IMG/VR virus record: IMGVR_UViG_3300031753_000018
Location: 1-41,948 of that record
DNA: 41,948 nucleotides
From: a virus
Reading direction: 5' to 3' (one strand)
Part shown: positions 5,193 through 40,897 of the stretch, one piece after another
How the letters are laid out: each line of letters begins with the position of its first letter
Position numbering within the stretch: the first letter of the stretch is position 1
Program-made: the position numbers and the translations under genes
The notes under the pieces: model-generated
The model's database searches: none
What the model was told of the DNA's origin: nothing
Seen by the model: the letters and a program-made list of their open reading frames with translations, nothing else

Positions 5193-5422
5193 TTCCAGGG
5201 TGCAAAATCCGGCAGATGCGTGCGGCGGCCCTCCGGGAGGTCCCTCGGTGCTGCGGCCTGCCCATGACGCTGACGGGCCGGGTGACGGCCGAGCCGCCCC
5301 TGCCCCCGGTCCCGCGCGGACCCGCCTACCGCGTGTACTCGGCGGTGTATGTCTGCGGCTGTTGCGCGGGCAACCGGGCGGTGCCGCACGAGTGGCAGAG
5401 GCTCGAGGAGGCAGGACCTTGA
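5189..5422 (+). CDS. Small cysteine-containing hypothetical protein
   Basis: 77 residues. CC appears at residues 21-22 and CGCC near residue 57, suggesting one zinc site built from two cysteine pairs. No known family is recognised. It begins inside the HNH gene and ends at TGA 5420-5422, which overlaps the TTG start of the next gene. Confidence 0.65.
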   Translation: MIPGCKIRQMRAAALREVPRCCGLPMTLTGRVTAEPPLPPVPRGPAYRVYSAVYVCGCCAGNRAVPHEWQRLEEAGP

Positions 5423-6600
5423 TTGCCTGGAGCTACGGCGGCGGCGTGCAGAGCGTGACCATCGGCGTGCTGATCCGAGAAGGGGCCTTGCCCCGGCCCG
5501 ACCTGGCCGGCATTGCGGACACGTCCCGGGAGGTCGCCTCGACCTGGGAGTATCTGTACCGGCACATGCAACCGTACCTGGACGCCATTGGGCTCAAGAT
5601 CGATGTGGTTCCTCACACGCTGGCCCGGGTGGACCTGTACGACAAGAGCGGCCTTACCCTGATGCCGGCCTACACGCGCACGGTCACGGAGTTTGACGGA
5701 CTTTTCGGCAGGCAGGAGGAAGTAGCAGAGGGCCGCCTTGCGGCCCTCTGCTCTGGCGAGTGGAAGCGAGACACCATGGAGCGATGGCTGCGGCTCAAGG
5801 GTGTCAAGGAGTGTGAGCAGTGGATCGGGTACAGCACGGACGAAAGCTGGCGGGTGAAGAAGGCCCATCGGAATTGGTGCCAGCCAGTCTATCCGCTCAT
5901 CGACAAAGGCATCAGCCGGGCACTGTGTGTCCGGATCATCGAAGGGGCCGGCCTGCCCGTGCCTCACAAGAGCCGCTGCTGGTGCTGCCCTCACCAGACG
6001 CCGGAAGAGTGGCTGGAGGTCCGGTCCAAGCCGGAGGAATGGGCGGCGGCCATCGCCCTTGAGCGGGAGATCAACGAACGCGACCCGAAGCAAGCCGGCC
6101 TGTTCCTCTACTCCGGCCGGGTGCCGCTGGAGATGGCGGATTTTCAGACGGATGCCGGACTGGCGCCGCCTGCTCGGCCGTGCGAAACGGGCCACTGCTG
6201 GACGCGAGAGGGGGTGAAACATGGCCCTGAAGATCGACCGCGACACCGCCCGGCAGCTGGGCATCCCCGACGTGCCGCCACGGCCGGCCCCGGCCCCGCC
6301 CGGCAACGACAAGGCCCGCCAGGCGCTCTTCCTGGCGGCGTGCAAGGCCCACGGCTTGCCCTTGCCGGAGGTCGAATACCCGTTCGCAAGGCATTGCCAC
6401 GAGCCCGCCTACCGGGGCCGGCTCTGGCGCTTCGATTACTGCTGGCCCCAGGCGGATGTTTTCCTCGAGGTCCAGGGCGGGCTGTGGACGGGCGGCCGGC
6501 ACGTCCGGGGACAGGCGCTCCTGCGCGAATACGAGAAGCTGAACGCCGCGACGGCGCTGGGCTGGTCCCCGGTCTTCTGCACGCCGGAGCAGCTCGATAG
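5419..6600 (+). CDS. PAPS-reductase-like PP-loop ATPase, open frame running past its expected end
   Basis: The start is TTG 5419, behind GAGGAGG and overlapping the previous stop. Residues 5-12 are SYGGGVQS, the PP-loop (SxGxxS) of the phosphoadenosine phosphosulfate reductase/ATP pyrophosphatase group, and CWCCPHQ and a C-terminal C...GHC provide metal-type cysteines. Phage members are known but their substrate is unclear; sulfur-linked DNA or tRNA modification and defence evasion are both possible. About 265 residues look genuine. After GHCWT at about 6200 the frame becomes Gly/Pro/Arg-rich and lies over the nuclease gene beginning at 6221. A TGA in the next frame at 6215-6217 would end the protein naturally if one base of the G run at 6210-6214 were lost. 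Confidence 0.75.
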   Translation: MIAWSYGGGVQSVTIGVLIREGALPRPDLAGIADTSREVASTWEYLYRHMQPYLDAIGLKIDVVPHTLARVDLYDKSGLTLMPAYTRTVTEFDGLFGRQEEVAEGRLAALCSGEWKRDTMERWLRLKGVKECEQWIGYSTDESWRVKKAHRNWCQPVYPLIDKGISRALCVRIIEGAGLPVPHKSRCWCCPHQTPEEWLEVRSKPEEWAAAIALEREINERDPKQAGLFLYSGRVPLEMADFQTDAGLAPPARPCETGHCWTREGVKHGPEDRPRHRPAAGHPRRAATAGPGPARQRQGPPGALPGGVQGPRLALAGGRIPVRKALPRARLPGPALALRLLLAPGGCFPRGPGRAVDGRPARPGTGAPARIREAERRDGAGLVPGLLHAGAAR

Positions 6601-6643
6601 CCTGGCGATCATGCCGACCCTCAAGGGGGTGTTACTGCCATGA
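6221..6643 (+). CDS. PD-(D/E)XK endonuclease (Vsr/DUF559-like)
   Basis: 140 residues. The core reads WRFDYCWPQADVFLEVQGG, then WTGGRHVRGQALLREYEKLN and ALGWSPVFC, following the D...ExxGG...H...K pattern of small Vsr-like or DUF559-like nucleases that phages carry beside recombination genes. Likely activity is cleavage of DNA junctions or nicks; the exact substrate cannot be read. The N-terminal 40 residues are Pro-rich. The ATG follows GAGGGGGTG. It is overlapped for 380 bases by the open frame of the upstream gene, which is probably not translated there. Confidence 0.8.
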   Translation: MALKIDRDTARQLGIPDVPPRPAPAPPGNDKARQALFLAACKAHGLPLPEVEYPFARHCHEPAYRGRLWRFDYCWPQADVFLEVQGGLWTGGRHVRGQALLREYEKLNAATALGWSPVFCTPEQLDSLAIMPTLKGVLLP

Positions 6644-6870
6644 CCGATGAAGCCCTCGGGGACATTGGCCCGGCGGTCCCGATTGCCCCGCTGGCCGTCC
6701 AGGTTGACCGCGTGGTCAAGCAGCGGGACGCCTTAGCCCGCCTGTGCGCGGAAATGGTGACGACGTTCCGGCTGCCGGCCAACGCGGAGAAGGTGGCGCT
6801 GCTCGGGCCGACGTTTGCCGAAATCGTGGCCGGGTGGGCAAAGCGGTTTGAGCAGGCGAGCGGCAATTGA
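6640..6870 (+). CDS. Hypothetical early protein, helical
   Basis: 76 residues, ATG overlapping the nuclease stop (ATGA). A helix DRVVKQRDALARLCAEMV resembles short phage coiled-coil proteins, and the second half is FAEIVAGWAKRFEQA. No domain or catalytic motif is recognised. Confidence 0.65.
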   Translation: MTDEALGDIGPAVPIAPLAVQVDRVVKQRDALARLCAEMVTTFRLPANAEKVALLGPTFAEIVAGWAKRFEQASGN

Positions 6871-6876
6871 AGCACG

Positions 6877-7095
6877 ATGCCAGCCAAGCACCGGCGGAAA
6901 CCTGGCTGGCCTCCACGTAAAGCACGACGAAGCCATGCGGCGGACGCCGACGCGGTGGCCGAGGTCGTGCAGAGGGGAGACGGACGGTGCTCCCCGCGGC
7001 CGGTGGAAGCCCGGCACCTAGCCGCTGTTCCGCCCCGGGGTAACGGGTTCTGCGGCGCTCATTCCCCGGGGCACTTTGATGCTATGGGACGCTAA
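6877..7095 (+). CDS. Doubtful small basic ORF
   Basis: A 72-codon frame starting ATG 6877 with no clear ribosome site. The product is Arg/Pro/His-rich without a helix or motif that would argue for a protein. The 285-base interval 6871-7155 also contains the inverted repeat at 7032-7072, so it could instead be an untranslated leader of the methylase gene. Confidence 0.2.
   Translation: MPAKHRRKPGWPPRKARRSHAADADAVAEVVQRGDGRCSPRPVEARHLAAVPPRGNGFCGAHSPGHFDAMGR
7032..7072. repeat. Perfect 9-bp inverted repeat upstream of the methylase
   Basis: GCCCCGGGG (7032-7040) and CCCCGGGGC (7064-7072) pair perfectly around 23 bases. It lies 84 bases before the methylase ATG. It may be an RNA hairpin in the leader, since no protein-binding function is evident and the arms are themselves G+C palindromes. 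Confidence 0.5.
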
Positions 7096-7155
7096 GCGGA
7101 GGATGTTCAGCCGCAAGGCGCTGCATGGCAGCTACCGGCTCGATGCGAGGCACAA

Positions 7156-8037
7156 ATGAAGATCGGCGCCCTGGCCCCCTGGTATGGCAGCAAGAGGACG
7201 CTGGCGCCGAGGATCGTGGAGCAGCTGGGCCCGCACCGCATCTACTGGGAACCCTTCTGCGGCAGCTGCTCGGTCCTGTTCTTCAAGGACCGCTGCACCT
7301 ATGAAACGGTCAACGACCTGCACCAGGACCTGATCAACCTGGCCCTGGTGGTGCAGGACGGCGACGCTGCGGCCGACCTGTACGGCATGGTCGCGCGGAC
7401 CCTGTTCCACGAGGACCTGCTGCCCACCGCGAAGCGCTATCTCACGGATGCGCCCGGGCCGGAGCCGGGAGAGTTCGACGTCGAGCGAGCCTACTGGTAC
7501 CTGGTCTTTTCCTGGATGGGGCTGAACGGCATCAGCGGCACCCCTCTGCACCACACCGGCACGTTCGCCGTCCGCTACTCGGGGAGTGGAGGCAACGGGG
7601 CAACGCGCTGGGCCTCGGTGTGCGACAGTATCCCCGACTGGCACCAGCGCCTGATCGGCGTGCAGGTCCTCAGCCGGGACGCCTTCGAGGTCCTGGAGCG
7701 GATCGACGACGCGCCGGGGACCGCGATCTACGTGGACCCGCCCTACATCACCAAGGGCGCGAAGTACGTCCACGACTTCGCCCTCGAGGATCACGACCGC
7801 CTGGCCGCGCTGCTGCGCCGGTTCCTCGACGCGCGGGTTGTGGTGAGCTATTACGATCATCCAGCCCTGGAAGGCCTGTACCTGGCCCGCGACTGGACGA
7901 AGATCGACAGCAGCAAGCTCAAGGTCGCCAAGAGCATGGTCAACAGCGGCAAGCGCGACCAGTCGGGCCGGACCGAGGCGCCCGAGGTGCTGCTGGCCAA
8001 CGGCCCGGCCCTGGGTGATCAGGCCACGCTGTTCTAG
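7156..8037 (+). CDS. D12-class N6-adenine DNA methyltransferase (Dam-like)
   Basis: 293 residues. PWYGSKR (8-14) is the N-terminal SAM-binding motif of the Dam/D12 class, FCGSCSV is the second SAM loop, and D194-P-P-Y197 is the catalytic motif. SYYDHPALEGLY and the C-terminal EVLLAN are typical of phage members. It should methylate adenine in phage DNA, probably to escape host restriction; target specificity cannot be inferred. The gene follows a 285-base spacer and ends ten bases before the next ATG. Confidence 0.92.
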   Translation: MKIGALAPWYGSKRTLAPRIVEQLGPHRIYWEPFCGSCSVLFFKDRCTYETVNDLHQDLINLALVVQDGDAAADLYGMVARTLFHEDLLPTAKRYLTDAPGPEPGEFDVERAYWYLVFSWMGLNGISGTPLHHTGTFAVRYSGSGGNGATRWASVCDSIPDWHQRLIGVQVLSRDAFEVLERIDDAPGTAIYVDPPYITKGAKYVHDFALEDHDRLAALLRRFLDARVVVSYYDHPALEGLYLARDWTKIDSSKLKVAKSMVNSGKRDQSGRTEAPEVLLANGPALGDQATLF

Positions 8038-8047
8038 GGAGGCCCCC

Positions 8048-8251
8048 ATGTCCGCGAGCCGCTACGTCCACCTCGACGTCCAGAAGATCCTGAAGGAAAC
8101 CGAGGCCGCCTTCCTCGTGCGTCTGGAGTGCTGGGACGAGCTGTGGCTGCCAAAATCCCAGGTGGCCAACCCGGAAGACTATCAGGAGGGGGACGAGGAC
8201 TGCTGCATCAGCATCACCTTATGGCTGGCCCGGGAAAAGGGGATCGACTGA
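8048..8251 (+). CDS. Small phage protein ending WLAREKGI
   Basis: 67 residues from ATG 8048 behind AGGGAGG. It contains LVRLECWDELWLPKSQV and ISITLWLAREKGI, the arrangement of a widespread small phage protein of unknown function in which a VPKSQ-type strand is followed by a C-terminal helix. An upstream in-frame start at 8015 lacks a ribosome site. Confidence 0.75.
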   Translation: MSASRYVHLDVQKILKETEAAFLVRLECWDELWLPKSQVANPEDYQEGDEDCCISITLWLAREKGID

Positions 8252-8320
8252 CGGGAGGGGGCCGCCAGGTACAACACCAGCGCCGGTAAAATCCAGCGAT
8301 GATCTTCTAGGGAGGTTTTT

Positions 8321-8815
8321 ATGTCGAAGTACATTGAGGTGTTGCAAGAGGACATCGACCGTGCCATCGCTAATTGCTCCAACAGGTGTGCTGTTGCCGA
8401 GGCGATCCGCAGATATTACCCGACCGCCGTGCGCATGCGGGTTGATCTGGCAACGATTCGGTTCACCCTTCCGGAGAAGCAAAAGCGCTACATCTACCTG
8501 ACGCCGGCTAAAGCCCAGGAGTACATCATCGCCTTTGATGCCGGGGAGAAGCTTGAACCCTTCTCGTTCCGGCTGGATGTGCAAGGTCGTCAAACCATCC
8601 CCAGCCAATCGATGCCTGCGGAGGTTCAACTGAAATTGCACGAACGGGCACACAACGGGCGCCGAGTGAATACCAAGGTCGAAAAGATTGGCGGCAAGGC
8701 GCCGCCAAGGCTTGGACCGTCCACGAGCCGCGGATTTGGAATCTGCGGGCTGCGGATCAACAAGGATAAGGTTACCGTTAACCGCGACGTGGATGCGGAG
8801 ACAACCGACGATTGA
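8321..8815 (+). CDS. Hypothetical protein, lower G+C than its neighbours
   Basis: 164 residues, behind AGGGAGG seven bases before the ATG. The N-terminal half begins MSKYIEVLQEDIDRAIANC and continues with a basic RYYPTAVRMR segment; the C-terminal third is Arg/Gly-rich. Codon third positions are visibly less G+C-biased than in adjacent genes, which suggests later acquisition. No known domain is recognised. It is the last rightward gene before the hairpin at 8826. Confidence 0.7.
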   Translation: MSKYIEVLQEDIDRAIANCSNRCAVAEAIRRYYPTAVRMRVDLATIRFTLPEKQKRYIYLTPAKAQEYIIAFDAGEKLEPFSFRLDVQGRQTIPSQSMPAEVQLKLHERAHNGRRVNTKVEKIGGKAPPRLGPSTSRGFGICGLRINKDKVTVNRDVDAETTDD

Positions 8816-8825
8816 CAGACATTGG

Positions 8826-8853
8826 GCAGGGGCGGCAGGGCCGCCGCCCCTGC
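8826..8853 (+). terminator. Strong hairpin ending the early operon
   Basis: GCAGGGGCGGC and GCCGCCCCTGC form a perfect 11-bp stem around six bases, eleven bases after the stop of the last early gene. No T tract follows (AGAAATT), so it is terminator-like rather than canonical. Confidence 0.6.
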
Positions 8854-8889
8854 AGAAATTGAGTGCGAAACCGCATCGTGAAAGCCGAT

Positions 8890-8905
8890 TGACATCGCCC
8901 TGTCA
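8890..8905. promoter_or_regulatory. TGACA-N6-TGTCA palindrome, copy 1
   Basis: TGACA TCGCCC TGTCA. It is identical in its ten arm bases to the copies at 10619, 16430 and 17343. Unlike 10619 and 17343 there is no TARGAT 18 bases downstream on either strand, so this copy may be an operator without its own promoter. Confidence 0.55.
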
Positions 8906-9214
8906 GCACAGAGCCCCCGGTTGGGCACACCGCGTCCGCCGCCGAGCGGTAGACCCTCCGGGGTTCGGCGGCCGGGGCTTGGCAGCTATCCCCCGCAGAG
9001 CAAGTTAGCGACTGAGGTATCGCCCCGGTGCGTGTGGGAGCGCTTGGCCCGGCCCACCCATCGTCAGGTCGTGCGGGTGCAACCGGCGGAACGACCCTAA
9101 CTAACCACCGCCGGCCGTCGCGGCTCCCTTCAGGGTTCGGCAGACGGCAGCACTGATCCCGTGGCACGGGGTCAGTGCGCCCTCCGCTTAGGGATTGGCA
9201 GTGCAGGGGCCGGG
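8906..9214. other. Stretch without a convincing gene, possible structured RNA
   Basis: No frame here has a plausible start and protein-like composition. The sequence has several pairing segments: CCGGGGC near 8972 with GCCCCGG near 9022, and the hairpin 9150-9178. The phrase GGGTTCGGC occurs twice (near 8960 and 9132). It may hold an untranslated RNA or the leftward operon's 3' region; nothing identifies an RNA family. Confidence 0.35.
9150..9178 (-). terminator. Hairpin 3' of the leftward operon
   Basis: GCACTGATCCCGT and ACGGGGTCAGTGC pair over 13 positions with one G-T wobble and a three-base loop. It stands 37 bases beyond the stop of the last leftward gene, a fitting place for termination, though no T run follows on either strand. 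Confidence 0.5.
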
Positions 9215-9412
9215 TCAATCGCCGGCTTTGGGGTCCGGCGGATGGCAAATGTCCTCTACGGCTTCTTCGGGAAGATCGGTCAGGTCTTCGGAGACGCTGA
9301 CGCCGCGCCCTGCGGCGTGGAATCGCATCGTCTCGACCGCCTCCGCCCAGCTCTCAAAGGCGGCTGCTGTCTGCCAGCGGTCGCCAGGAAGCACATAGGT
9401 GCCGTACCACAT
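9215..9412 (-). CDS. Small hypothetical protein of the leftward operon
   Basis: 65 residues, starting two bases after the preceding gene with GGAGG seven bases ahead of its ATG. The sequence MWYGTYVLPGDRWQTAAAFE and SWAEAVETMRFHAA is typical of short HicB-like or phage strand-helix proteins, but no family is firm. Translation is probably coupled to the 181-residue protein upstream. Confidence 0.65.
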   Translation of the reverse strand: MWYGTYVLPGDRWQTAAAFESWAEAVETMRFHAAGRGVSVSEDLTDLPEEAVEDICHPPDPKAGD

Positions 9413-9414
9413 AG

Positions 9415-9960
9415 CTAGTCCTCCAGAACAGCAGCCGCCAGCCCCGCCAGTCGCTCCGCCACGGCCCGGCGGTCGTCGTCGTTCAGGGACGCCAGCACTT
9501 CCTCCCTCGCCAGCACTGGCACGGTCCCCAGGTGCGCCTCGGCGGCCTTCACTCGACTAAATACGGCCGAGAGTCCGTGCCCCCAGGAGGCGCCGAACTC
9601 GCTCCCACCAGTCTCCAGGATCGAGTCGTCTTTCAGATCGCGGCACCACTCCGCGGCCATCTCCAGGGCCGCCTGATGGCGGTCCAGGATGCCGCGCTGC
9701 GTCCGGTAGGTGGAGCGCCCTGTCTCCGCCGTTAACACGCTCAGCACACCCTGCCCGAGATCCAGACGTGCCAGGGCCTGGCGGATTACGGCTACCAGCA
9801 CCCGGACGGGCACTCTGAGATTGGAAAACTCATATTCTCCGGCGTCAGTGACACCTGGGACAGCCAGGCCAGGGCGGTCGTTGCCGGGACGCGGCACCAC
9901 GACGTAAGCCAATCCGCGCTCACTCGCCAGACCAGCCGCCCTCTGAGCAGTCTTCGCCAT
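9415..9960 (-). CDS. Hypothetical protein of the leftward operon
   Basis: 181 residues from ATG 9960, chosen because GAGGG is spaced properly before it; an ATG two codons earlier abuts the ribosome site. The N-terminal half has strands (GLAYVVVPRPGN, YEFSNLRVPVRVLVAVI) and the C-terminal half is helical with an acidic end (LNDDDRRAVAERLAGL). There is no HTH or catalytic signature. Position opposite the ribbon-helix-helix gene suggests a lysogeny or immunity role, by context only. Its leader contains one copy of the 27-bp repeat. Confidence 0.65.
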   Translation of the reverse strand: MAKTAQRAAGLASERGLAYVVVPRPGNDRPGLAVPGVTDAGEYEFSNLRVPVRVLVAVIRQALARLDLGQGVLSVLTAETGRSTYRTQRGILDRHQAALEMAAEWCRDLKDDSILETGGSEFGASWGHGLSAVFSRVKAAEAHLGTVPVLAREEVLASLNDDDRRAVAERLAGLAAAVLED

Positions 9961-9981
9961 CGTCATCCCTCCCTCTTTCGT

Positions 9982-10008
9982 CCCCGGCCCGCGTCCGCCG
10001 CGGGCCCC
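9982..10008 (-). repeat. 27-bp leader element, copy 1
   Basis: Identical over 27 bases to 10280-10306. On the minus strand it contains a hairpin GGCCCGCG-GCGGA-CGCGGGCC. It lies just upstream of the Shine-Dalgarno of the 181-residue protein gene. The purine-rich sequence between hairpin and start is also similar at both sites. Confidence 0.75.
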
Positions 10009-10015
10009 TAGTGTG

Positions 10016-10038
10016 GCCCGGGGCGACGTGCCCCGGGC
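10016..10038 (-). terminator. Hairpin between the two leftward genes
   Basis: GCCCGGGGC and GCCCCGGGC form a perfect 9-bp stem with a five-base loop, eight bases beyond the stop of the 71-residue gene. With no T run it could be an attenuator or an mRNA-processing structure separating the two leftward genes. Confidence 0.5.
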
Positions 10039-10045
10039 GGTGGTG

Positions 10046-10261
10046 TTAGTAGCCGTCTTTCGCGGCGGACGCCTTCAGCGCTTCCAGCCGCTCATCGTAC
10101 AATCGTCGCCGCGCGAGCTCTTCAGCCTCGGTTCGAGTAGCTGCCCGAACCCGTTCGCATCTCTGCCGAACCTGCAGATCAACCGGCGGCCGGTCGAGTA
10201 CCAGGATCTCGTTCGGCGGGAAGCTTGGGCACCCCATCTCGATGCAGTAGTACGTTCGCAT
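10046..10261 (-). CDS. Small hypothetical protein, first gene of the leftward operon
   Basis: 71 residues from the ATG at 10261, behind GGGAGAAA. MRTYYCIEMGCPSFPPNEI is followed by LVLDRPPVD and a long charged helix (RTEAEELARRRLYDERLEAL). No family recognised. It is transcribed from the promoter at 10331-10358 and carries the second copy of the 27-bp leader element. Confidence 0.7.
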   Translation of the reverse strand: MRTYYCIEMGCPSFPPNEILVLDRPPVDLQVRQRCERVRAATRTEAEELARRRLYDERLEALKASAAKDGY

Positions 10262-10279
10262 GACTTTTCTCCCTTTCGC

Positions 10280-10306
10280 CCCCGGCCCGCGTCCGCCGCG
10301 GGCCCC
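10280..10306 (-). repeat. 27-bp leader element, copy 2
   Basis: Exact copy of 9982-10008, again immediately 5' of a leftward gene's ribosome site. Two identical hairpin leaders within 300 bases suggest duplication of a regulatory leader, or a shared RNA-level control of the two genes. Confidence 0.75.
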
Positions 10307-10330
10307 GTGTCTCTTGCGTCCCACACCCAT

Positions 10331-10358
10331 ATTGTACCGGGACAATTCCCAGGGTCAA
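10331..10358 (-). promoter_or_regulatory. Leftward sigma70-like promoter with overlapping operator
   Basis: On the minus strand TTGACC, 16 bases, TACAAT. The -10 lies inside the near-perfect palindrome ATTGTACCGGGACAAT (10331-10346, one mismatched pair), a fitting operator. A second inverted pair, GGAAAA and TTTTCC (10369-10392), lies between it and the divergent regulator gene. The promoter should drive the 71-residue gene and those beyond it. Confidence 0.7.
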
Positions 10359-10414
10359 GGCCGGTTGCGGAAAATTCCCTGGATATTTTTCCGGGGGCCG
10401 GGTAGCATGGGTGC

Positions 10415-10621
10415 ATGAGACGCAAGCCAGGCTATCGCGTGGTGCAGGCCGAGGTCCCGGCAGAGTTGTGGCAAGCGCTCGTGGCCGACGCCTGCGTCCA
10501 CGGCCGCAGCGCCAACGCGCAGCTGGTCCACGTCCTCAAGCGTGCTTACCCCCGGGCCGGCGGCGAGCTGCCGCGCCGCCCCGGCCGGCCCCGCAAGGGC
10601 GCCGCCGCCCCCACCCGCTGA
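10415..10621 (+). CDS. Ribbon-helix-helix (Arc-type) DNA-binding protein
   Basis: 68 residues. RVVQAEVPAELWQALVADA then HGRSANAQLVHVLKRA matches the strand-helix-helix of Arc/MetJ-type repressors. The C-terminal 18 residues form a basic Pro/Arg/Gly tail that may contact DNA. It is divergent from the leftward operon, with palindromes in the 153-base gap, so autoregulation and control of that operon are likely. There is no good Shine-Dalgarno before the ATG. Its TGA is the left end of the palindrome at 10619. Confidence 0.75.
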   Translation: MRRKPGYRVVQAEVPAELWQALVADACVHGRSANAQLVHVLKRAYPRAGGELPRRPGRPRKGAAAPTR

Positions 10622-10658
10622 CATACCCCTGTCAATCCCCCGGCCGCCGTGGTAGGAT
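10619..10658 (+). promoter_or_regulatory. Late-type promoter A with TGACA-N6-TGTCA operator
   Basis: Palindrome TGACA-TACCCC-TGTCA at 10619-10634. Its right arm forms the -35 CTGTCA (10629-10634), followed by 18 bases and TAGGAT (10653-10658). The region to GATGGGGCCA is nearly identical to the promoter at 17343-17382. It leads into the small membrane protein and metalloprotease cassette. Confidence 0.65.
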
Positions 10659-10688
10659 GGGGCCACCAGCACACAGCGGGGGCCCCCC

Positions 10689-10859
10689 ATGAGCGCCGGC
10701 ATCTGGTTCTGGATCATCTTCGTCCTGGTCGTCCTGTTCGGCTGTTTCGCCTACTATCCTTTCGGCGGCGACACGCGGCGCTACGCCGGCGTGTCCCTGG
10801 CGATCCTGGTGCTGATCGGCCTGCTGGGCTGGGGCGTGTTCGGGCCGCCGATCAAGTGA
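10689..10859 (+). CDS. Small two-helix membrane protein, holin candidate
   Basis: 56 residues from ATG 10689. Helix 1 is IWFWIIFVLVVLFGCFAYY, then a short charged turn (GGDTRRY), then helix 2 GVSLAILVLIGLLGWGVFG. Size and topology suit a class II-like holin, and it is the first gene after the late-type promoter. Other small membrane roles are equally compatible with sequence alone. Confidence 0.6.
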   Translation: MSAGIWFWIIFVLVVLFGCFAYYPFGGDTRRYAGVSLAILVLIGLLGWGVFGPPIK

Positions 10860-10865
10860 GGCGCC

Positions 10866-11066
10866 ATGGACCTTCCCGAAATGGAGCTGCGCGAGGCGGC
10901 GGCCGTGGCCTGGCTTCGGGCCCGGCGGGAGCTGCCGAACCTCAACCTCGACAACCGGCCCCGGCTCGAAGCCAGGCTCCGCTGTGCCTTTTTGGCGGGC
11001 TGGGCAAAGGGCTTCACCGCGGCGCTCGACTGGGATGACGCGGCGCCGGAGTGCCGCGGCAAGTGA
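10866..11066 (+). CDS. Small hypothetical protein of the lysis-like cassette
   Basis: 66 residues, with GTGAGG before the ATG. It is helical: LREAAAVAWLRARRELPNL and LRCAFLAGWAKGFTAALDW. There is no signal peptide or transmembrane helix and no domain is recognised. It is translationally close to both flanking membrane protein genes. Confidence 0.65.
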   Translation: MDLPEMELREAAAVAWLRARRELPNLNLDNRPRLEARLRCAFLAGWAKGFTAALDWDDAAPECRGK

Positions 11067-11073
11067 GGGACGC

Positions 11074-11502
11074 ATGCTGTCTGACGCCGAACCGGCCACG
11101 TCCTGGGGCGCGATCACGGCGGTCGCCGTGACCGTGGGCTTCATCGCGCAGATCGTGCTCCAGGTCCTGGCGCGGTGGGACGCGGCCCGGACGGCGGCCA
11201 AGGCCCAGGCCGCTGCCTCGAACGCGGCGACGCAGGTGAGCGCGGTTAAGCGCACGCTGGAGACGGCGACTGCCACCAGCGACGCCAAGCTGGACTCCCT
11301 GGGCAAGGTGGCGACGGCGACGCACGCGCTCGTCAACAACAACATGGCCGTGCAGCTGCGGCTCAACGCCGCCCTGGCCCGGCGCCTGGCCGAGCTGACC
11401 CGGGATCTGTCCGATATCCGCGCGGCCGACCTGGCCGACCAGCTCCTGGCGGAACACGAGGCGAAGCAAGCCGTGGTCGATGCCGCGGCTGGACCGAAGT
11501 AG
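11074..11502 (+). CDS. Membrane-anchored coiled-coil protein, holin or spanin-like candidate
   Basis: 142 residues from ATG 11074, eight bases after the previous stop. A single hydrophobic segment AITAVAVTVGFIAQIVLQVL (residues 11-30) is followed by a long Ala/Thr-rich coiled coil to the C-terminus with Ala/Leu spacing (LRLNAALARRLAELTRDL). Such an N-anchored rod would suit an inner-membrane spanin or a phage membrane adaptor. This is inference from topology and position before the metalloprotease. Confidence 0.6.
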   Translation: MLSDAEPATSWGAITAVAVTVGFIAQIVLQVLARWDAARTAAKAQAAASNAATQVSAVKRTLETATATSDAKLDSLGKVATATHALVNNNMAVQLRLNAALARRLAELTRDLSDIRAADLADQLLAEHEAKQAVVDAAAGPK

Positions 11503-11513
11503 ACCAGCGGAGC

Positions 11514-11546
11514 GGGCCCGCCGACCGGCGCCGGGCCCCCCTTTTT
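11514..11546 (+). terminator. Rho-independent terminator-like hairpin
   Basis: GGGCCCG and CGGGCCC pair around an 11-base G+C-rich loop and are followed by CC and five Ts (11542-11546). It sits in the 65-base gap after the coiled-coil gene, so it may attenuate expression of the next two genes. Confidence 0.6.
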
Positions 11547-11567
11547 CACCCGAGAGGAACCCGACCG

Positions 11568-11936
11568 ATGGCAGCACCGACGATTCCGCAGTCCGTGATT
11601 GATGCCCTGAACCAGGCCGAGGCCGACCAGGCCGTGGCCACGTCCGCGGCCGCGACGGTGACGACCGACCAGACCACCCTCGCCACCGACCAGGCGGCCC
11701 TGGCGACGGCCAACGCCACGGCGGCGGCGAGCACGAAGGCGGCGATTGCCGCCGTGTACACGGCCCTGGGCCTGACGCCGCCGGCCGGCATCATGGCCGC
11801 GCTGCCGGAGTCCGGCCTGTTCACGGGCGGCGTCCCGTGGGCGCTGATCCTCAAATTGCTTAAGGCGCTGCTCGATACGGCCGGAACGGTGGCGGCGCCG
11901 GCGCCAGCCGGGCAGAAGGCGGCGCCGAAGAAGTGA
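11568..11936 (+). CDS. Ala/Thr-rich coiled-coil protein
   Basis: 122 residues, behind GAGAGGAA. The first 60 residues are almost wholly Ala, Thr, Asp and Gln with repeats such as TTDQTTLATDQAALATANAT, a coiled coil. Residues 85-110 are hydrophobic or amphipathic (VPWALILKLLKALLDTA), and the tail is Lys/Ala/Pro-rich. It might be a membrane-active or structural accessory; no family is recognised. Hairpins lie on both sides of it. Confidence 0.6.
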   Translation: MAAPTIPQSVIDALNQAEADQAVATSAAATVTTDQTTLATDQAALATANATAAASTKAAIAAVYTALGLTPPAGIMAALPESGLFTGGVPWALILKLLKALLDTAGTVAAPAPAGQKAAPKK

Positions 11937-11946
11937 CCCCTCCAGA

Positions 11947-11985
11947 GGCCGGGCGGGGCTGGCGCTACACAGCCCCGCCCCGGCC
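11947..11985 (+). terminator. Long hairpin before the metalloprotease gene
   Basis: GGCCGGGCGGGGCTG pairs with CAGCCCCGCCCCGGCC with one bulged G and an eight-base loop. It lies 17 bases before the metalloprotease ATG. Without a T run it may limit read-through or control translation of the protease. Confidence 0.55.
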
Positions 11986-12002
11986 CTTCCCATGAGGTGA
12001 CG

Positions 12003-12962
12003 ATGCCCGAGATGATCTGCACCCCAAAATCCCTGCCTGACGATTTGCTGCTGCCCTCGGCGGCAACGGCAGCGCGGATCAACCCCGCCAACGCGCCGGC
12101 GCCGGCGCTGTCCCTGGCGGCGGTGCTGCCCCCGGAACACTTAGCCCTCCTGACTTCGCGCTACTGGGGCGGCGGCGGCGTGAGCCTGGCGGTGGGCTTC
12201 CTCGAGCCGGTGGCTGCGGATTTGAGCGCCCGCATCCTGTCCCACATGAACGCCTGGGGGCAGTATTGCAACTGCAAATTCTCGCTGACCCAGCAAATCG
12301 GCAGCGCTCAGGTGCGGATCACCCTGGCGGGTGACGGCTACTGGTCGTACCTCGGGACCGACATCCTGCACATCCCTGCGGGCCAGCCGACGATGAGTCT
12401 GCAAGGCTTCACGATGGGGACGGCCGAGGGCGAGTACCGCCGCGTCGTCCGGCACGAGACGGGCCATACCCTCGGGTTCATCCACGAGCACCTCCGCAAG
12501 GAGCTGGTGGCGCGCCTCGACCCGGCCAAAACCATTGCCTGGGGTGCGTCGCAGCTGGGCTGGTCGGCGGCGATGGTCCAGCAGCAGATCCTGACGCCGG
12601 CCGACGACTCGAGCCTGACGGAGACGCCGGCGGCGGACCAGCTGTCGATCATGTGCTACCAGCTGCCGGGGTCGATCACGGTGGACGGCCAGCCGATCCT
12701 CGGCGGCACGGACATCGACCCGACCGACCAGCAGTTCGCGGCGAAGTTGTACCGGCTGCCGAACGTGCCGCCGCCACCCGTGGGGCCCGTGCCGGCAGGG
12801 GCGCTGTTCCCGATGACGTTCAATAAGTCCGTGCCTTTAGGCGCGACCTTCGTCGCGCGGGCCAAGAAGCCGATTCCGGCGGGCACTTATGGGCTGGTGC
12901 CGCAGGCCGCTGGGGCGGAAGAGGCGGCCCTGGCGGTAGGGATATTCGACCCGGACGACTGA
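12003..12962 (+). CDS. Astacin-like (M12A, metzincin) zinc metalloprotease
   Basis: 319 residues from ATG 12003, preceded by GAGGT. H151-E-T-G-H155-T-L-G-F-I-H161-E is the extended metzincin zinc motif, with three histidine ligands and catalytic E152; GFIHEH is astacin-like (GFxHE). S-I-M217-C-Y219 is the Met-turn with its tyrosine. Upstream, GDGYWSYLGTDILHI and QPTMSLQGFT match bacterial M12A proteins. No signal peptide is visible, so export would need a holin or release with the virion. The C-terminal 80 residues are Pro-rich and beta-like. It stands in the lysis-like cassette, and digestion of a protein-rich envelope during lysis or entry is my inference. Confidence 0.9.
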   Translation: MPEMICTPKSLPDDLLLPSAATAARINPANAPAPALSLAAVLPPEHLALLTSRYWGGGGVSLAVGFLEPVAADLSARILSHMNAWGQYCNCKFSLTQQIGSAQVRITLAGDGYWSYLGTDILHIPAGQPTMSLQGFTMGTAEGEYRRVVRHETGHTLGFIHEHLRKELVARLDPAKTIAWGASQLGWSAAMVQQQILTPADDSSLTETPAADQLSIMCYQLPGSITVDGQPILGGTDIDPTDQQFAAKLYRLPNVPPPPVGPVPAGALFPMTFNKSVPLGATFVARAKKPIPAGTYGLVPQAAGAEEAALAVGIFDPDD

Positions 12963-12974
12963 CGAAATGAAAGC

Positions 12975-13007
12975 GGCGCCGGCCGGTTTGCGGGCCCGGC
13001 CGGCGCC
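12975..13007. terminator. Bidirectional hairpin between convergent genes
   Basis: GGCGCCGGCCGG and CCGGCCGGCGCC form a perfect 12-bp stem with a nine-base loop. It separates the convergent metalloprotease and lipoprotein genes and can fold on either transcript; neither side has a T run. Confidence 0.65.
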
Positions 13008-13022
13008 GGCGCGGACACGGAC

Positions 13023-13427
13023 TCAGGGCGCGCCCTTGGGCATGGGCGCGGCGGCGGCCGCTGCTGGCAACCGGGACTCGATGCGCCGCAGCGTATCGCA
13101 AATCTCCTGGAGCGTGCAGGGCTGGCCCTGGGAGGCCAGGGCGGCGGGCACCGGGGCGTAATCGGCGCAGGGGTTGACGGGCGGAGGCGCCGCGGCGATC
13201 ACGGGCCGGGCCACGGGGCCCGTCATGGTCGCGCCCACGGGCTCAGCTGCCACGCCACCGATGGCCAGGGGGCCGGTCATCTGCTGCACAGTTACCGGCG
13301 TGGACAGCGTGGCCGGCCGGCCGACCTGGAAAACCCAGCCGGTGGTACTGGTCGGGCCGGAGCAGCAGCCGGCCGGCAGAGCGGCCAGCAAGGCCGCCAG
13401 CAGGAAAAGGAATCGTCCTGTCCGCAT
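13023..13427 (-). CDS. Small lipoprotein
   Basis: 134 residues. The N-terminus MRTGRFLFLLAALLAALPAGC is a lipoprotein signal peptide with lipobox LPAGC, giving cysteine 21 as the lipidation site. The mature protein is Pro/Ala/Thr-rich and has two further cysteines (CADYAPV, QPCTLQEICDTLRRIESRL) and one short helix. Its position next to the lysis-like cassette would suit an outer-membrane spanin, but the opposite orientation and low complexity leave this open. A lysogenic-conversion lipoprotein is the alternative. Confidence 0.75.
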   Translation of the reverse strand: MRTGRFLFLLAALLAALPAGCCSGPTSTTGWVFQVGRPATLSTPVTVQQMTGPLAIGGVAAEPVGATMTGPVARPVIAAAPPPVNPCADYAPVPAALASQGQPCTLQEICDTLRRIESRLPAAAAAAPMPKGAP

Positions 13428-13866: not shown

Positions 13867-14856
13867 ATGAGCCATGCCGGCTTCCTGCAAGCGATCCTGG
13901 CCGCCCCCGACGACGACACGCCGCGCCTGGCGTACGCGGACTGGCTGGAGGAACGGGGCGACCCGCGGGGAGAGTTCATCCGGGTGCAATGCGAGCTGGC
14001 CCAGATCGGTAACCCCATGTCGGAGGCGGAGGATTCGAGAGATGACATCCTCCGCGAGCGCGAGCGGGAGTTGCTGGCGACGCACTGGCCGGAATGGCGG
14101 CCCCACCGTTGGTGTTACTGCGCCAACATGGATGGACCAGACTTGGCACACGACGACGATTGGTGGGTCGCCACCTTCCGCCGCGGCTTCGTCCACTCCC
14201 TCACCTTGCCCGCCGCCGCCTGGCTGGAGTACGCCGACGCGATCCTGGCCACGAACCCAGTCCGGGAAGTGACGCTGACGACGCTGCCGCAAGTGGAGCA
14301 GCAGACGATCGGGCGCGTTCATGATCCCAGCTGGCGCGCGCCGTACCGACTGCTCGGCAGGCAGCGCTGGTACGACTGGGAAGCGCTGGGCAGGCTAGAG
14401 AACATCGAAGCTCTCGGGCTCAAGCTGCTCTCCCTGGAATGGCCCGGTATCCGCTTCGCGCTGCCCCAACTTGAGCGCTACGGACGCCTGGTCCAGCTAC
14501 CGGACGACATCTTGACGCGCGACTACACCAAAGAGGACATGGCCAGCATGCGGGAGGCGGGCGCGCGCAGGGCCGCCGAGCTCGAGCAGAGCATCATCGA
14601 AGCGATCGGCATTCCAAGCGCGCTCATCGGCACGCTTCGCGGTGCCAACTACTCCAGCACGCTCGCACAGCAGGGCAGGCACGGGGGCGAGCGCAGCGAC
14701 CAGGCAGACGTCGGGACGCCGTCGGTCGATGATCCTCCCGACGATCCCACTGCCTATGCTGCCCCCGATCGCGGGCGGACCGACCGACGCCCACGGCAGG
14801 ATCGGCCGCCAGGGAACCCGTTCCGGCGACGGCGCGGGACACCACGCGATGCATGA
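13867..14856 (+). CDS. TIGR02996-domain protein (planctomycete type)
   Basis: 329 residues from ATG 13867 behind GGAGG. The N-terminus, with FLQAILAAPDDDTPRLAYAD, WLEERGDPRGEFIRVQCEL and a RERELLATH helix, is the TIGR02996 domain, a repeat-companion domain expanded in Gemmata-like planctomycetes and rare elsewhere. Residues 85-190 resemble the leucine-rich-like extension that usually follows (GFVHSLTLP, VREVTLT). Near residue 250 the sequence (SIIEAIGIPSALIG) recalls portal-protein text and may be a fusion. The last 55 residues are disordered and Arg/Pro-rich. It is likely a host gene captured by the phage, with unknown role. Confidence 0.8.
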   Translation: MSHAGFLQAILAAPDDDTPRLAYADWLEERGDPRGEFIRVQCELAQIGNPMSEAEDSRDDILRERERELLATHWPEWRPHRWCYCANMDGPDLAHDDDWWVATFRRGFVHSLTLPAAAWLEYADAILATNPVREVTLTTLPQVEQQTIGRVHDPSWRAPYRLLGRQRWYDWEALGRLENIEALGLKLLSLEWPGIRFALPQLERYGRLVQLPDDILTRDYTKEDMASMREAGARRAAELEQSIIEAIGIPSALIGTLRGANYSSTLAQQGRHGGERSDQADVGTPSVDDPPDDPTAYAAPDRGRTDRRPRQDRPPGNPFRRRRGTPRDA

Positions 14857-14946: not shown

Positions 14947-17046
14947 ATGACGCAGACGCTGGAGCAGCGGCGGGAGGGGGTGAGGCGGCGGCTGGCGGAG
15001 GTCAGCCGGTCGGGCCGGGACTGTGCCCCGATCCCGCCGATCGCCGACGTGCGGCGGCGGACACGGTGCCGCAAGAGCCTGCGCCTGTTCATGGAAACCT
15101 ACAACCCGGCCCCCCTCTATTTCGGGTGGGCACCCTACCAGCTTGACGGCGTCCGCAAGGTGGAGGAGGCTATCACGCGGGGCGGACTCCAGGCCGTGGC
15201 CTGGCCGCGGGGCGGCGGCAAGACGGTGCTGTGCCGCATGGCGGCGCTGTGGGGGGTGAGCTACGCCCTGGTGCGCTACGGCTTCCTCCTCGGGGCGAAC
15301 GAGGGCATGGCGAAGGCCACCCTGGAGGCGGTCAAGACGTTCATGCGCTTCCTGCCCCTGTACCGGGCCGACTTCCCGGAAATCTGCCACCCGGTCGAGA
15401 AGATCGAGGGGATCGCCCAGCGAGCTGGCGGGCAGCTGTGCGACGGCAAGCCGACCATGATCGAGTGGGGGCAGACGTGCATTGTCCTGCCGACGGTGCC
15501 GTGCCCGCCCAACTGGCCGCGCTCCTGGGCCAAGCGATCCGACGGCATGGCGCCGACCTCGGGCGCGGTGCTCAGTGCCTCGGGGCTGACCGGCAACGGG
15601 ATTCGCGGCTCGGTCCACACCCTGACCACGGGCGAGCAGGTCAGGCCCGATTTCGTGCTGCTCGACGACCCGCAGACCCCCGAGAGCGCGGCCAGCCCCG
15701 ACCAGAACGACAAGCGCGAGCGGCTGGTGTCAGCGGACGTGCTGGGCATGGCTGGACCGGGGCGGACGATCGCGGCCCTCATGCCATGCACGGTGATCTA
15801 CCCCGACGACATGTGCGACCGCCTCCTGGACCGGCGCAAGCACCCTGAATGGCGCGGCGAGCGCGTCAAGATGGTGCTCCGGCCGCCGGACAACCTTGAT
15901 GCCTGGGATCGGTACAACGAGGTGTACCGGCGCTGCCTGGGCAGGGAGCCGCCCGACCTGTCTAAGGCCAACGCCTACTACGAGGCGCACCGCGCCGAGC
16001 TGGACGCGGGCTGCGAGCTGAGCTGGCCGGAGCGCAAGCACCCGGGCGACGTCTCGCCGGTCCAGCACGCCATGCACATTTACCTCCGCGACCGGCGGAC
16101 CTTCCAGTCGGAGTACCAAAACGACCCGGACCCCCTGGTGCCTCCCTCCCCCGGCGAGCTGCACGCCGCGGAGATCATCTGCCGGCTCAATCACCAGGTC
16201 TGGGGCGTGGTGCCGGCCTGGGCCGAGCGGCTGACGTGCTTCGTGGACGTGCAGCAGGACCTGCTCTATGGGGCGGTCTGCGCCTGGGGCGAGGGTTTCA
16301 CCGGGGCGGTCCTGGACTACGGCGCCTACCCCGACCAGCGCCGCGCGTACTACGCCCTGGCCGACGCCCGCCCCACGCTGGCGCAGGCCACCGGCATCGG
16401 CAGCCTGGAGGGCAGCTTGTGGGCCGGACTGACAGCCCTGTGTCAGCAGCTGCTGGGCCGGGACTGGCGGACCCCGGCCGGGACCGTCTTCCGCGTCGAG
16501 CGCTGCCTCATTGATTCGGGCTGGGGCCAGAGCACGGCGCTGGTGAAGAAGTTCTGTCTGGAGAGCGATCATGCGGCGGTGCTCTTGCCCTCGAAGGGCG
16601 TGGGGCTGGGCGCGTCGCACAACGCCATGTCGGACTGGCCGAAGAAACCCGGCGAGCGGCGCGGGTCGGACTGGGTCGTGCGCGTCGAGCCCGGACACGG
16701 CCGCTTGCTCCTGTACGACGCGCACGCCTGGAAAAGCTTCCTGGCCGCGCGGCTGCGGCAACCGCTGGGCGAGCCCGGGGCCCTGACCCTGTACGGCGCC
16801 GACCCGGAGGCCCATCGGCTGCTGGCGGACCACTGCTGCGCCGAATACCCGGTGCGCACGAGCGGGCGGGGGCGGGAGCTGGACGAGTGGAAGGTGCGGC
16901 CCGGCAACGACAATCACTTCTGGGACTGCCTCGTGGGCTGCTGCGTGGCGGCCTCCGAGCGCGGCGCGGTCCTGCGCGGGATGGAGCCGGTGCAGCGTGT
17001 GCGGCGCAAGGTTGACTACTCCAAGTTGCGCGGGAGGGGGACATGA
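14947..17046 (+). CDS. Terminase large subunit, GpA-like
   Basis: 699 residues, the DNA-packaging motor and headful or cos nuclease. The ATPase has P87-R-G-G-G-K-T93 in place of a canonical Walker A, and FVLLDDP (236-242) as Walker B. The nuclease domain starts at CFVDVQQDLLYGAV (the first acidic residue), with CLIDSGWGQST and GNDNHFWDCLVG as later motifs typical of GpA-like enzymes. An ATG at 14947 lacks a strong ribosome site. No small terminase gene is recognisable upstream. The gene overlaps the following zinc protein (ATGA-like spacing). Confidence 0.9.
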   Translation: MTQTLEQRREGVRRRLAEVSRSGRDCAPIPPIADVRRRTRCRKSLRLFMETYNPAPLYFGWAPYQLDGVRKVEEAITRGGLQAVAWPRGGGKTVLCRMAALWGVSYALVRYGFLLGANEGMAKATLEAVKTFMRFLPLYRADFPEICHPVEKIEGIAQRAGGQLCDGKPTMIEWGQTCIVLPTVPCPPNWPRSWAKRSDGMAPTSGAVLSASGLTGNGIRGSVHTLTTGEQVRPDFVLLDDPQTPESAASPDQNDKRERLVSADVLGMAGPGRTIAALMPCTVIYPDDMCDRLLDRRKHPEWRGERVKMVLRPPDNLDAWDRYNEVYRRCLGREPPDLSKANAYYEAHRAELDAGCELSWPERKHPGDVSPVQHAMHIYLRDRRTFQSEYQNDPDPLVPPSPGELHAAEIICRLNHQVWGVVPAWAERLTCFVDVQQDLLYGAVCAWGEGFTGAVLDYGAYPDQRRAYYALADARPTLAQATGIGSLEGSLWAGLTALCQQLLGRDWRTPAGTVFRVERCLIDSGWGQSTALVKKFCLESDHAAVLLPSKGVGLGASHNAMSDWPKKPGERRGSDWVVRVEPGHGRLLLYDAHAWKSFLAARLRQPLGEPGALTLYGADPEAHRLLADHCCAEYPVRTSGRGRELDEWKVRPGNDNHFWDCLVGCCVAASERGAVLRGMEPVQRVRRKVDYSKLRGRGT
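16430..16445. promoter_or_regulatory. TGACA-N6-TGTCA palindrome, copy inside the terminase gene
   Basis: TGACA GCCCTG TGTCA, within the terminase coding sequence. It has the same arms and spacing as the three intergenic copies. There is no TARGAT 18 bases downstream, so it may be an extra operator site or simple coincidence. Confidence 0.4.
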
Positions 17047-18569: not shown

Positions 18570-21002
18570 GTGCCCACCAACCCAGGCGGCTACGGTTACT
18601 ACCTGCCGGTCTACCCCAACAACCGGGCCAACGCCTCGGCTGCGTGCGCCTGGTATCAGTGGCTCATCACCATCACCGACAACGCGGTGTCAGCGGCCGC
18701 CGTCCACGTCGGCGGCACGGGCGGGGGGTCTGGGTACACGGTGGGAGATGTGCTCACCGTCTCGGGAGGAACCTACGTCGCCCAGCCGTGCCTGCTCCAG
18801 GTGACGAGCGTGGGGGCGAGCAACACGGTCACCGGCGTCATGGTCCTGGTGCCCGGCGACTACACGACCTCCCCGGGTACGTCGAACGTCAGCGTCACCG
18901 GCGGCACCGGCACGTCCGCGGCATTCGACCTGACCATCACGCATCCGTACACGTCGATCACGACGCACGCTGCTTTTGCCGACCTGCGTGACCTGCGCTT
19001 GCAGGATTCGGATGGCGTCACGCTGCTGAACTTCTGGCTCAAGGACAACGACAGCACCAATAAGATCATTCGCCTGACGGGGACGATCCCCAACGTGCCG
19101 GCCGGCGTCGTGGACTCACCGCGCTACCTCTGGTACGGCAACGCCGGCGCCTCGTCGGTCAGCAGCGCGGCTAATACTTACGTTAGCCAGAATTTGCCGA
19201 CCGTCACGGACGTTTTCACCCAGACCGACCACGCCGGCTACAATAGCAACCCATCCGCAACCATCCTTCAATACCAGACCGGTGGCAACGTTGCACGTAA
19301 CGGCCTGATCTATGCGATTTTCGGTGGGGTCGGCTCCAACGGCAATGGCACGGTCGGCTACATCTACAAGATGGAGTGTCCGCAGACCTCGGACCCGACC
19401 AACCCGAGCAACTGGACCGGCAAAGCGAGCATCGGTGGCAGGTCCGTCACGGTCAACTCCACAGGCTACTTGCACGACTTCTGCTTGCTGGAGATGGCGA
19501 ACGGGACACTCATTCGCGGCTACCGCTACGGCACGAATGCGAACGTCGCTGCGGCGGCCATCGGCACGGCTTACTGTTCCAAGAGTACGGATGGCGGCGT
19601 CACCTGGAACGACGCCTCGGCCTCCTCCGTGTCGCTGGGCTATACGGGGTTCTTCCTCTTCACTGGCAAGCCGATTCAACAACCCAACGGAGACATCTGG
19701 GCTCCGTATTACGCACAGAACTCGGGGGATGCCGCCGCCACCTGGCGAGCCGGCATTGCAATCTGCGCCAACGGCAACGACCCGTCGGCGGGTGATTCTT
19801 CCTGGTCCAAGCTGGTTGAGGTGTTCTTCACCGTCGGCGTCAGCTTCGGTGAGCCGGCGCTGTTCAAGGTCAGCTCCACGAATTACTTCATGGTGTGTCG
19901 CAACGACACTGCGTCTACCGGCGGCGACCTCTGGATCAGTCGATCCACGGACAGCGGCGTCACCTGGTCCGCCCCGGCGGCGCTGAACCTGCCCGGCAAG
20001 GGCATGACCAGCACTAACGCTTACTACGTTTCGCCCCACCCCCTGACGACGACGCTTGGCAATCAACTCCTCTTCTGCGGGCTGCGGGCGACCAGCGGCC
20101 ACTGGGGCGTCGGTTGCCTGGCCTCTTCGGACGGCGGTGCTACGTTTGGGCCGGTTGCTCCCTTCGGTGCCGGCAGCACCGGAGTTTTCACTAGCTACGG
20201 TTACCCGGCTGCCGTGCAGCGGTCGGACGGAAAGATTCTGGTTCTTCAGTATCGTGACGACGGCCTCGGCGACAACTTGACGAACATCGCCGTTTCGCTC
20301 ACCGACGAGTTCTACTGCTTCAATCCGTTGGGCTTTTACGATGGGTACGAATCCGGCCTGGGCAACTGGTCCGTCACGACGGGCAGCACGCAGGACTCCG
20401 GGCAGAAACACTCGGGCACGTACAGCTGCAAAATCGACGGCAACACGGCCGGCGCCAAGATCACCAGGGCCATCGCCGCAGCACCGCAACTCTACGCCAA
20501 GCGCCTCGCCGTGGGCTTCTACCTCTACTCTGACACGTTCACGAACATTGCGGGCGGTCCCGAACTAATTCTGCAAGACGGCAACGGTAGCACGAACATC
20601 GAGATCGCCGCCGTCAACGCAAGCAACACCACGTCCCCCTATCCGTATCAAGGCGACAGCGCCGGTACGTTCACCGACTGGACCACGCACGCCACGCTTG
20701 CAGCGACGACGTGGACTGAGTTCATCCACTACATGGATGCCAGCTCGTCCTCGACTCCCTTTATCCTGACCAAAAATCACCAGAACCTGGGGAGCAACAT
20801 CCGCCGGGCCGGCACGCCAGTTCAGTGGATAAAGAACCTGACCATTTCCGAAGGTGATCCCTCCGCCGTCAACAATGTCATGCACGTTGACGAGGCGACG
20901 ATCGGCCAGTACCCGCCCGGCGGCAACGTGCCGACCGGGACCGTGGGGGCGGAGGTCGTGGTCGCCGGCCACCTGCTGGCCAGCCTGGGCTGCGGGGCCT
21001 GA
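18570..21002 (+). CDS. Large fibre protein with DUF2341-like and sialidase-like propeller domains
   Basis: 810 residues. Residues 20-110 hold a Gly/Thr-rich beta segment. Residues 130-210, with FADLRDLRLQDSDGVTLLNF and LWYGNA, look like a DUF2341 carbohydrate-binding unit. From about 215 to 590 a beta-propeller is indicated by three Asp-box repeats: SKSTDGGVTW (337-346), SRSTDSGVTW (457-466) and SSDGGATF (about 520), as in sialidases. The last 200 residues, after DGYESGLGNWSVTTGS, resemble a LamG/jelly-roll binding domain. The likely role is receptor binding, with or without glycan cleavage; catalytic sialidase arginines could not be assigned. It starts with ATG, or with a nearby GTG. Confidence 0.8.
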   Translation: MPTNPGGYGYYLPVYPNNRANASAACAWYQWLITITDNAVSAAAVHVGGTGGGSGYTVGDVLTVSGGTYVAQPCLLQVTSVGASNTVTGVMVLVPGDYTTSPGTSNVSVTGGTGTSAAFDLTITHPYTSITTHAAFADLRDLRLQDSDGVTLLNFWLKDNDSTNKIIRLTGTIPNVPAGVVDSPRYLWYGNAGASSVSSAANTYVSQNLPTVTDVFTQTDHAGYNSNPSATILQYQTGGNVARNGLIYAIFGGVGSNGNGTVGYIYKMECPQTSDPTNPSNWTGKASIGGRSVTVNSTGYLHDFCLLEMANGTLIRGYRYGTNANVAAAAIGTAYCSKSTDGGVTWNDASASSVSLGYTGFFLFTGKPIQQPNGDIWAPYYAQNSGDAAATWRAGIAICANGNDPSAGDSSWSKLVEVFFTVGVSFGEPALFKVSSTNYFMVCRNDTASTGGDLWISRSTDSGVTWSAPAALNLPGKGMTSTNAYYVSPHPLTTTLGNQLLFCGLRATSGHWGVGCLASSDGGATFGPVAPFGAGSTGVFTSYGYPAAVQRSDGKILVLQYRDDGLGDNLTNIAVSLTDEFYCFNPLGFYDGYESGLGNWSVTTGSTQDSGQKHSGTYSCKIDGNTAGAKITRAIAAAPQLYAKRLAVGFYLYSDTFTNIAGGPELILQDGNGSTNIEIAAVNASNTTSPYPYQGDSAGTFTDWTTHATLAATTWTEFIHYMDASSSSTPFILTKNHQNLGSNIRRAGTPVQWIKNLTISEGDPSAVNNVMHVDEATIGQYPPGGNVPTGTVGAEVVVAGHLLASLGCGA

Positions 21003-27140: not shown

Positions 27141-27177
27141 CGCCGGGCCGCCCGCCCGCCGTTGGAGGGTACCTTCC

Positions 27178-40802: not shown

Positions 40803-40897
40803 GACCGGGACTCCCGCGCCGACCCGCGTGAACGAGCCCGCTTGGCCCGTCCAAACTGGCCGGCAGCGCGTCGCAGGCGCTACCGGTTGGGGAGGCG

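Follow-up and report, generated by a model that had tools for sequence, protein, structure and literature searches.

To our knowledge nearly every double-stranded DNA phage that has been studied lyses its host by means of a peptidoglycan hydrolase, and in the holin-endolysin cassette of tailed phages small membrane proteins adjoin a soluble hydrolase that has no signal peptide, beside the packaging genes. The locus described here is built alike but differs in that its hydrolase is a protease, an M12A (astacin/myroilysin-like) metzincin encoded just upstream of the terminase gene, and in that no peptidoglycan hydrolase, no spanin pair and no recognised holin accompany it. It lies in IMGVR_UViG_3300031753_000018, an uncultivated IMG/VR contig of 41,948 bases without end repeats or a completeness estimate, the whole of which is called the window below. 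In viruses, astacins had been reported only from an insect reovirus in a survey of 2023 (PMC9848320). An earlier note, made from the sequence alone, had proposed that this protease serves in lysis or entry; having followed it up, we consider the chances evenly divided on whether the protease is an envelope-directed enzyme of a late/lysis cassette, and the enzyme, or one enzyme, of host lysis.

The assignment of the protein to M12A is firm, since all four tested features (zinc motif, Met-turn, profile and fold) were present. The open reading frame, the motif from H151 to E162 and the Met-turn methionine M217, read earlier as a complete metzincin signature, were all confirmed. The HExxHxxGxxHE motif was kept in 96 of 97 relatives and the SxMxY pattern of the Met-turn in all 97, and the zinc ligands were invariant across 11 viral copies. 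Pfam Astacin (PF01400) matched at 24.7 bits, above its curated cut-off of 22.5 (E 2.1e-5), and the closest solved relative by sequence was myroilysin, a bacterial M12A enzyme of Myroides (PDB search, E 3.6e-24, about 30% identity). The AlphaFold model (mean predicted local distance difference test score (pLDDT) 69, parts of the core above 90) resembled mature myroilysin (5zjk) with a TM-score of 0.80 by target length (Foldseek E 1e-15); a chance motif is excluded by these fold and family matches. Myroilysin also shares the zinc motif, the Met-turn and a cysteine upstream of the catalytic domain, but it is a secreted bacterial enzyme, whereas the phage protein lacks a signal peptide or any other export signal and ends in a disordered tail of about 60 residues beyond residue 257. 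The phage cysteine lies further from the domain and is only a candidate for zinc binding: the motif C-x-x-K-x-LP around Cys6 was found in 90 of 97 relatives (most exceptions being truncated calls or variants), its spacing differs from that in myroilysin, and the pLDDT of the model is near 53 at the N-terminus. Latency through a cysteine switch, with the N-terminal cysteine on the zinc, is therefore best called plausible. Like the animal astacins (crayfish astacin, meprin, BMP1) the phage protein has both motifs and passes the Astacin cut-off, but it lacks their signal peptide and their prodomain with the FxGD aspartate switch; as myroilysin is also without the aspartate switch, its absence rules out the animal subgroup and not M12A.

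The window proteins included no recognisable endolysin in Pfam or PHROGs. The absence reported in the earlier note thus stands within the libraries scanned; as the contig may be incomplete, it can be claimed for the window and cannot be claimed genome-wide. Over the 20 protease-bearing viral contigs (1.07 Mb) we obtained no match to Amidase_2, Amidase_3, Phage_lysozyme, SLT, M15_4 or M23 of Pfam, with control genomes giving matches, these six families not being all endolysins (CHAP, NlpC/P60, GH25 and others lay outside the cross-contig search) and the contigs being possibly incomplete. The 57-kb contig of locus L004 (G003) resembles the window in its terminase, portal, capsid and integrase and matched both Astacin and a 'putative phage metallopeptidase'; the 25 listed of its 29 Pfam families likewise include no endolysin. 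Because a peptidoglycan hydrolase was searched for and not found, the genes do not form a classical holin-endolysin cassette.

A further finding was the exchange of proteases in one genomic slot. We compared the genes after the capsid gene in 80 loci whose capsids belong to the family found in L007, L009, L118 and L122 (L numbers denote the collected loci). The slot carries M12A in four contig groups of the shared capsid type, and without a metzincin it often has another protease, the Pfam result consisting of family counts without member names and some of the assignments resting on sequence reading. These proteases are papain-like (L165, L177, L185 and L205, with a profile match to PDB cysteine proteases at E 4.5e-6, and L190 and L252, assigned by motif), a sedolisin in L187 (kumamolisin, E 1e-80), a subtilase in L207 (Pfam S8), trypsin-like (Trypsin_2 in four slot proteins) and a matrixin in L186 (13766-14620; matrix metalloproteinase MMP-1, E 4.6e-6), which with its N-terminal PG_binding_1-like domain has the layout of the animal pro-MMPs. 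In L187 the cassette (5260-11353) contains a membrane-coil gene, a CAP-domain protein and both of the cytochromes treated further on, the sedolisin replacing the metzincin. Slot proteases of L165, L170, L180, L184 and L195 have an N-terminal transmembrane or signal-like stretch and for that reason probably act outside the cytoplasm. We read the pattern as one in which unrelated enzymes would be exchanged for a single function, envelope proteolysis. The papain-like protease of L190 (15981-17957) carries a 371-residue intein inserted at the presumed catalytic cysteine, and intein and LAGLIDADG profiles were matched in the slot set. A gene (c428) that in more distant relatives often lies close to the capsid gene appeared by eye to be DUF115/MptE-like rather than a lysis gene.

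The two small membrane proteins upstream of the protease, which the earlier note had pointed out, were confirmed. The two-transmembrane protein is 59% identical (E 5.5e-11) to L121:4976-5167, which is placed between the L121 protease and a secreted cytochrome (CYT-A), and a similar gene in L118 (4191-4373) precedes the membrane-coil gene there; no family exceeded the threshold in Pfam, PHROG and NCBIfam scans. The membrane-coil protein, which has a conserved H-A-L-V-N-N-N-M-A-V-Q-L stretch in its coil, has relatives in L190 (14380-14880, E 1.8e-29) and L118 (4477-4809, E 7.9e-22), both inside protease/cytochrome cassettes. A scan of IMG/VR with this family gave 21 loci (L243-L263), with a conserved H-T-L-V-N-S-N-M-G-V-Q-L stretch; the family is thus widespread among IMG/VR contigs, while 50,697 annotated phage genomes gave no match. 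The cassettes with a membrane-coil gene contain a metzincin in L118 and a papain-like protease in L190 and L252 (two genes downstream in the latter), and L245 carries CYT-A and its partner CYT-B. Near the gene in L261 lies a protein that resembles annotated phage proteins with DUF2778, a family whose members include peptidoglycan-active enzymes. In 15 of 21 contigs a small membrane gene (at most 200 residues, same strand) is no further than two genes from the protease, where genes picked at random from these loci would give 6.1 (10,000 draws, all below 15), an enrichment weakened by the counting of exported proteins with signal peptides as transmembrane proteins. The earlier note had asked whether such proteases sit beside holin candidates in other phages; as far as small transmembrane genes are concerned, they often do.

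Support for a lysis role is indirect and comes from the absence of endolysins, the small transmembrane genes, the recurrence of the membrane-coil gene and the exchange in the slot. In the mechanism we propose, a temperate planctomycete phage would express a myroilysin-type M12A protease along with its late genes. Having no export signal, the enzyme would accumulate in the cytoplasm, where the N-terminal cysteine on the zinc would probably keep it latent. The two-transmembrane and membrane-coil proteins would open the inner membrane as holins do, upon which the protease would pass to the periplasm, become activated and cut envelope proteins, so that the host lyses. That the protease works like an endolysin in this way is plausible, with about as much for it as against it. 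A wider proposal, that planctomycete phages as a group lyse by an interchangeable protease behind holin-like proteins and without an endolysin, often with a cytochrome pair that may bring down the membrane potential or govern its timing, is tentative and in our opinion rather unlikely.

Several observations weigh against a role in lysis. The sacculi of Gemmata obscuriglobus are made of peptidoglycan that contains diaminopimelic acid and is sensitive to lysozyme (PMC4432640), and other planctomycetes likewise have peptidoglycan that lysozyme attacks, so the protein-rich planctomycete wall by which the earlier note had justified a protease is outdated; a protease alone should not suffice, and a step that opens the peptidoglycan is missing from the mechanism. 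None of the small membrane proteins gave a significant E-value with a PHROG holin family. The limits of the cross-contig endolysin search count here too, and so does an apparent M15 endolysin beside the membrane-coil gene of L253, seen by eye, unconfirmed by a PDB search, PF08291 and annotated phages, and hence not counted. The slot also carries lipases, CAP proteins and PAS proteins and may be a general accessory site, and the comparison of proteases covered this slot only, out of the whole of these genomes. The lipoprotein next to the protease, part of the cassette in the earlier note, does have a lipobox, but lies on the opposite strand and is thus not expressed together with the protease; its membership is doubtful. 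As regards spanins, this antisense lipoprotein is what was observed, and no PHROG spanin match was found in the window. Homologues outside lysis, which the earlier note had named as evidence to the contrary, were found in part: the family was found at 119 loci in bacteria of many phyla, outside any visible phage or lysis context. Nor did we find the late-type promoter reported ahead of the cassette, as no sigma-70-like site was present on the + strand between 9900 and 15000. The earlier note is thus largely upheld in what it observed and supported in part in how it read it.

The association with secreted cytochromes supports the chief rival to lysis, and a serious one. Of 21 viral contigs, 16 encode CYT-A (about 500 residues, one invariant CxxCH) no more than a few kb away from the protease, mostly with the smaller secreted CxxCH protein CYT-B coming next; both are secreted monoheme c-type cytochromes (e.g. 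L011:10922-12403 and 12412-13155). The CYT-A model is fairly confident (pLDDT 78, predicted TM-score 0.80) and matched no PDB structure, and CYT-B weakly resembles a cbb3-type cytochrome domain. The pairing would be expected of a module for metabolism or host modification as much as of one for lysis. The protease, with or without the cytochromes, might thus be a moron that alters the host periplasm or surface in lysogeny or infection (e.g. superinfection exclusion, respiration or nutrient gain), in line with CYT-A relatives in 7 of 294 Planctomycetota genomes and with the highly variable content of the slot. The window itself, however, has no exported CxxCH protein and keeps its protease beside holin-like genes, so the cytochromes are dispensable for the role of its cassette; moreover the protease, unlike the cytochromes, has no export signal, and no other lysis enzyme was seen. 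We regard the moron explanation as possible but on balance unlikely.

The position of the gene bears on a third possibility, that the protease is packaged with the capsid and acts in entry or head maturation. In L007, L008/L009, L118 and L122 it is flanked by the capsid/decoration genes on one side and the head-tail connectors on the other, and the lack of an export signal would suit a virion protein, but in L004, L011 and L012 it follows the tail genes, and proteases in the same slot of sister phages carry N-terminal transmembrane or signal-like stretches. A function in head maturation is rejected, as the window has a maturation protease of its own fused to the capsid protein, and a virion-associated enzyme in general seems improbable to us. 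That the protein is not a protease at all but a zinc hydrolase, which may cut envelope glycan, has to be considered because of SCO6992/AbsR1, a Streptomyces protein that shares the motif and for which beta-glucuronidase activity and no detectable protease activity were reported (PMC9705864). The corresponding model NF050131 matched a related zinc-site domain at residues 97-270 (E 2e-9) and in a second viral copy (E 5e-12), both far below the cut-off (36.9 of 650 bits for the window protein), whereas the peptidase myroilysin is a much closer solved relative and the slots of sister phages contain undoubted proteases. This reading is very improbable, and SCO6992 serves as a reminder that the label protease is an assignment from sequence and fold.

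We found the protease in about 20 further IMG/VR contigs, of which L002/L005 carry two tandem copies (L005:8387-9262 and 9944-10882, with a decoration-like gene between them), and found no relative among the annotated phage genomes mentioned above. The family is common in soil bacteria and occurs on a few plasmids, which would agree with a bacterial gene that was acquired recently and either plays no part in the phage cycle or persists solely because the lysogen profits from it. Its bacterial neighbourhoods had no common partner across phyla. In the tree, however, the viral copies are clustered (4 label changes vs 10.5 with shuffled labels), with the window protease beside that of L004 (group support 86, Shimodaira-Hasegawa-like approximate likelihood ratio test only), the catalytic residues are kept, and close copies were present in just 1 of 294 Planctomycetota genomes; we give recent acquisition hardly any credence. 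Because the viral copies cluster, we take the gene to have become established among certain phages, having either arisen in bacteria or been exchanged with them.

Features of the window and of related loci (positions in the window unless a locus is named)
Feature	Position	Strand	Basis or remark
YqaJ-type exonuclease, phage helicase, DNA methyltransferase	left part of window
56-residue two-transmembrane protein, holin candidate	10689-10859	+	transmembrane count; DUF3309-like layout by eye
66-residue protein, no assigned function	10866-11066	+	open reading frame in gene cluster; no family match
Membrane-coil protein (N-terminal transmembrane helix, then coil), holin-like or lysis-accessory candidate	11074-11502	+	sequence relatives
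122-residue Ala-rich protein, no assigned function	11568-11936	+	no family match
M12A (astacin/myroilysin-like) metzincin, 319 residues	12003-12962	+	Pfam Astacin, PDB, fold, 97 relatives
Cys6 codon, conserved N-terminal motif, candidate cysteine switch	12018-12020	+	relatives
Zinc site HETGHTLGFIHE, residues 151-162 (H151, E152, H155, H161, E162)	12453-12488	+	sequence
Met-turn SIMCY, S215-Y219 (M217)	12645-12659	+	sequence
134-residue lipoprotein, LPAGC lipobox	13023-13427	-	sequence; no family match; antisense to protease
TIGR02996-domain protein	13867-14856	+	NCBIfam TIGR02996 E 5.3e-24
Terminase large subunit	14947-17046	+	PF20454 E 3.5e-22, phrog_38 E 5e-28; opens packaging/structural block after cassette
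Lambda-type portal	21660-24188
Capsid fused to maturation protease	24481-26838
Tape-measure protein	32234-34237
Integrase	39861-41327	-
Cytochrome loci	L003, L004, L005, L006, L007, L009, L011, L012, L114-L118, L120-L122, L171, L187, L190, L245

No relative of the 66-residue protein or of the lipoprotein was present in the collected loci and no viral relative of the Ala-rich protein was found, and searches with the Ala-rich gene and the distal tail gene as queries gave no new phage; the terminase had one short relative (L093). An 810-residue protein (18570-21002) has BNR repeats and DUF2341 and matched a head-decoration family with its N-terminal part. The structural block includes a weak glycosyltransferase-like gene (27162-28391) and a methyltransferase gene (29432-30103). 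Near the tail genes lies a putative mannosyltransferase fused to an FkbM methyltransferase (36938-38641), with a relative in L120. The presence of TIGR02996, which we take to be a Gemmata-associated domain, makes a planctomycete host likely.

With these results various environmental phages join the insect reovirus of the 2023 survey (PMC9848320) as viral carriers of astacin-type peptidases, and such phages might also become a source of enzymes to open planctomycete cells if the lysis role is correct. What holds the planctomycete envelope together has been debated since the proposal of a 'proteinaceous wall'. A phage lineage that uses a protease would, if the proposed role is true, represent a new mode of lysis and would be informative on that cohesion.

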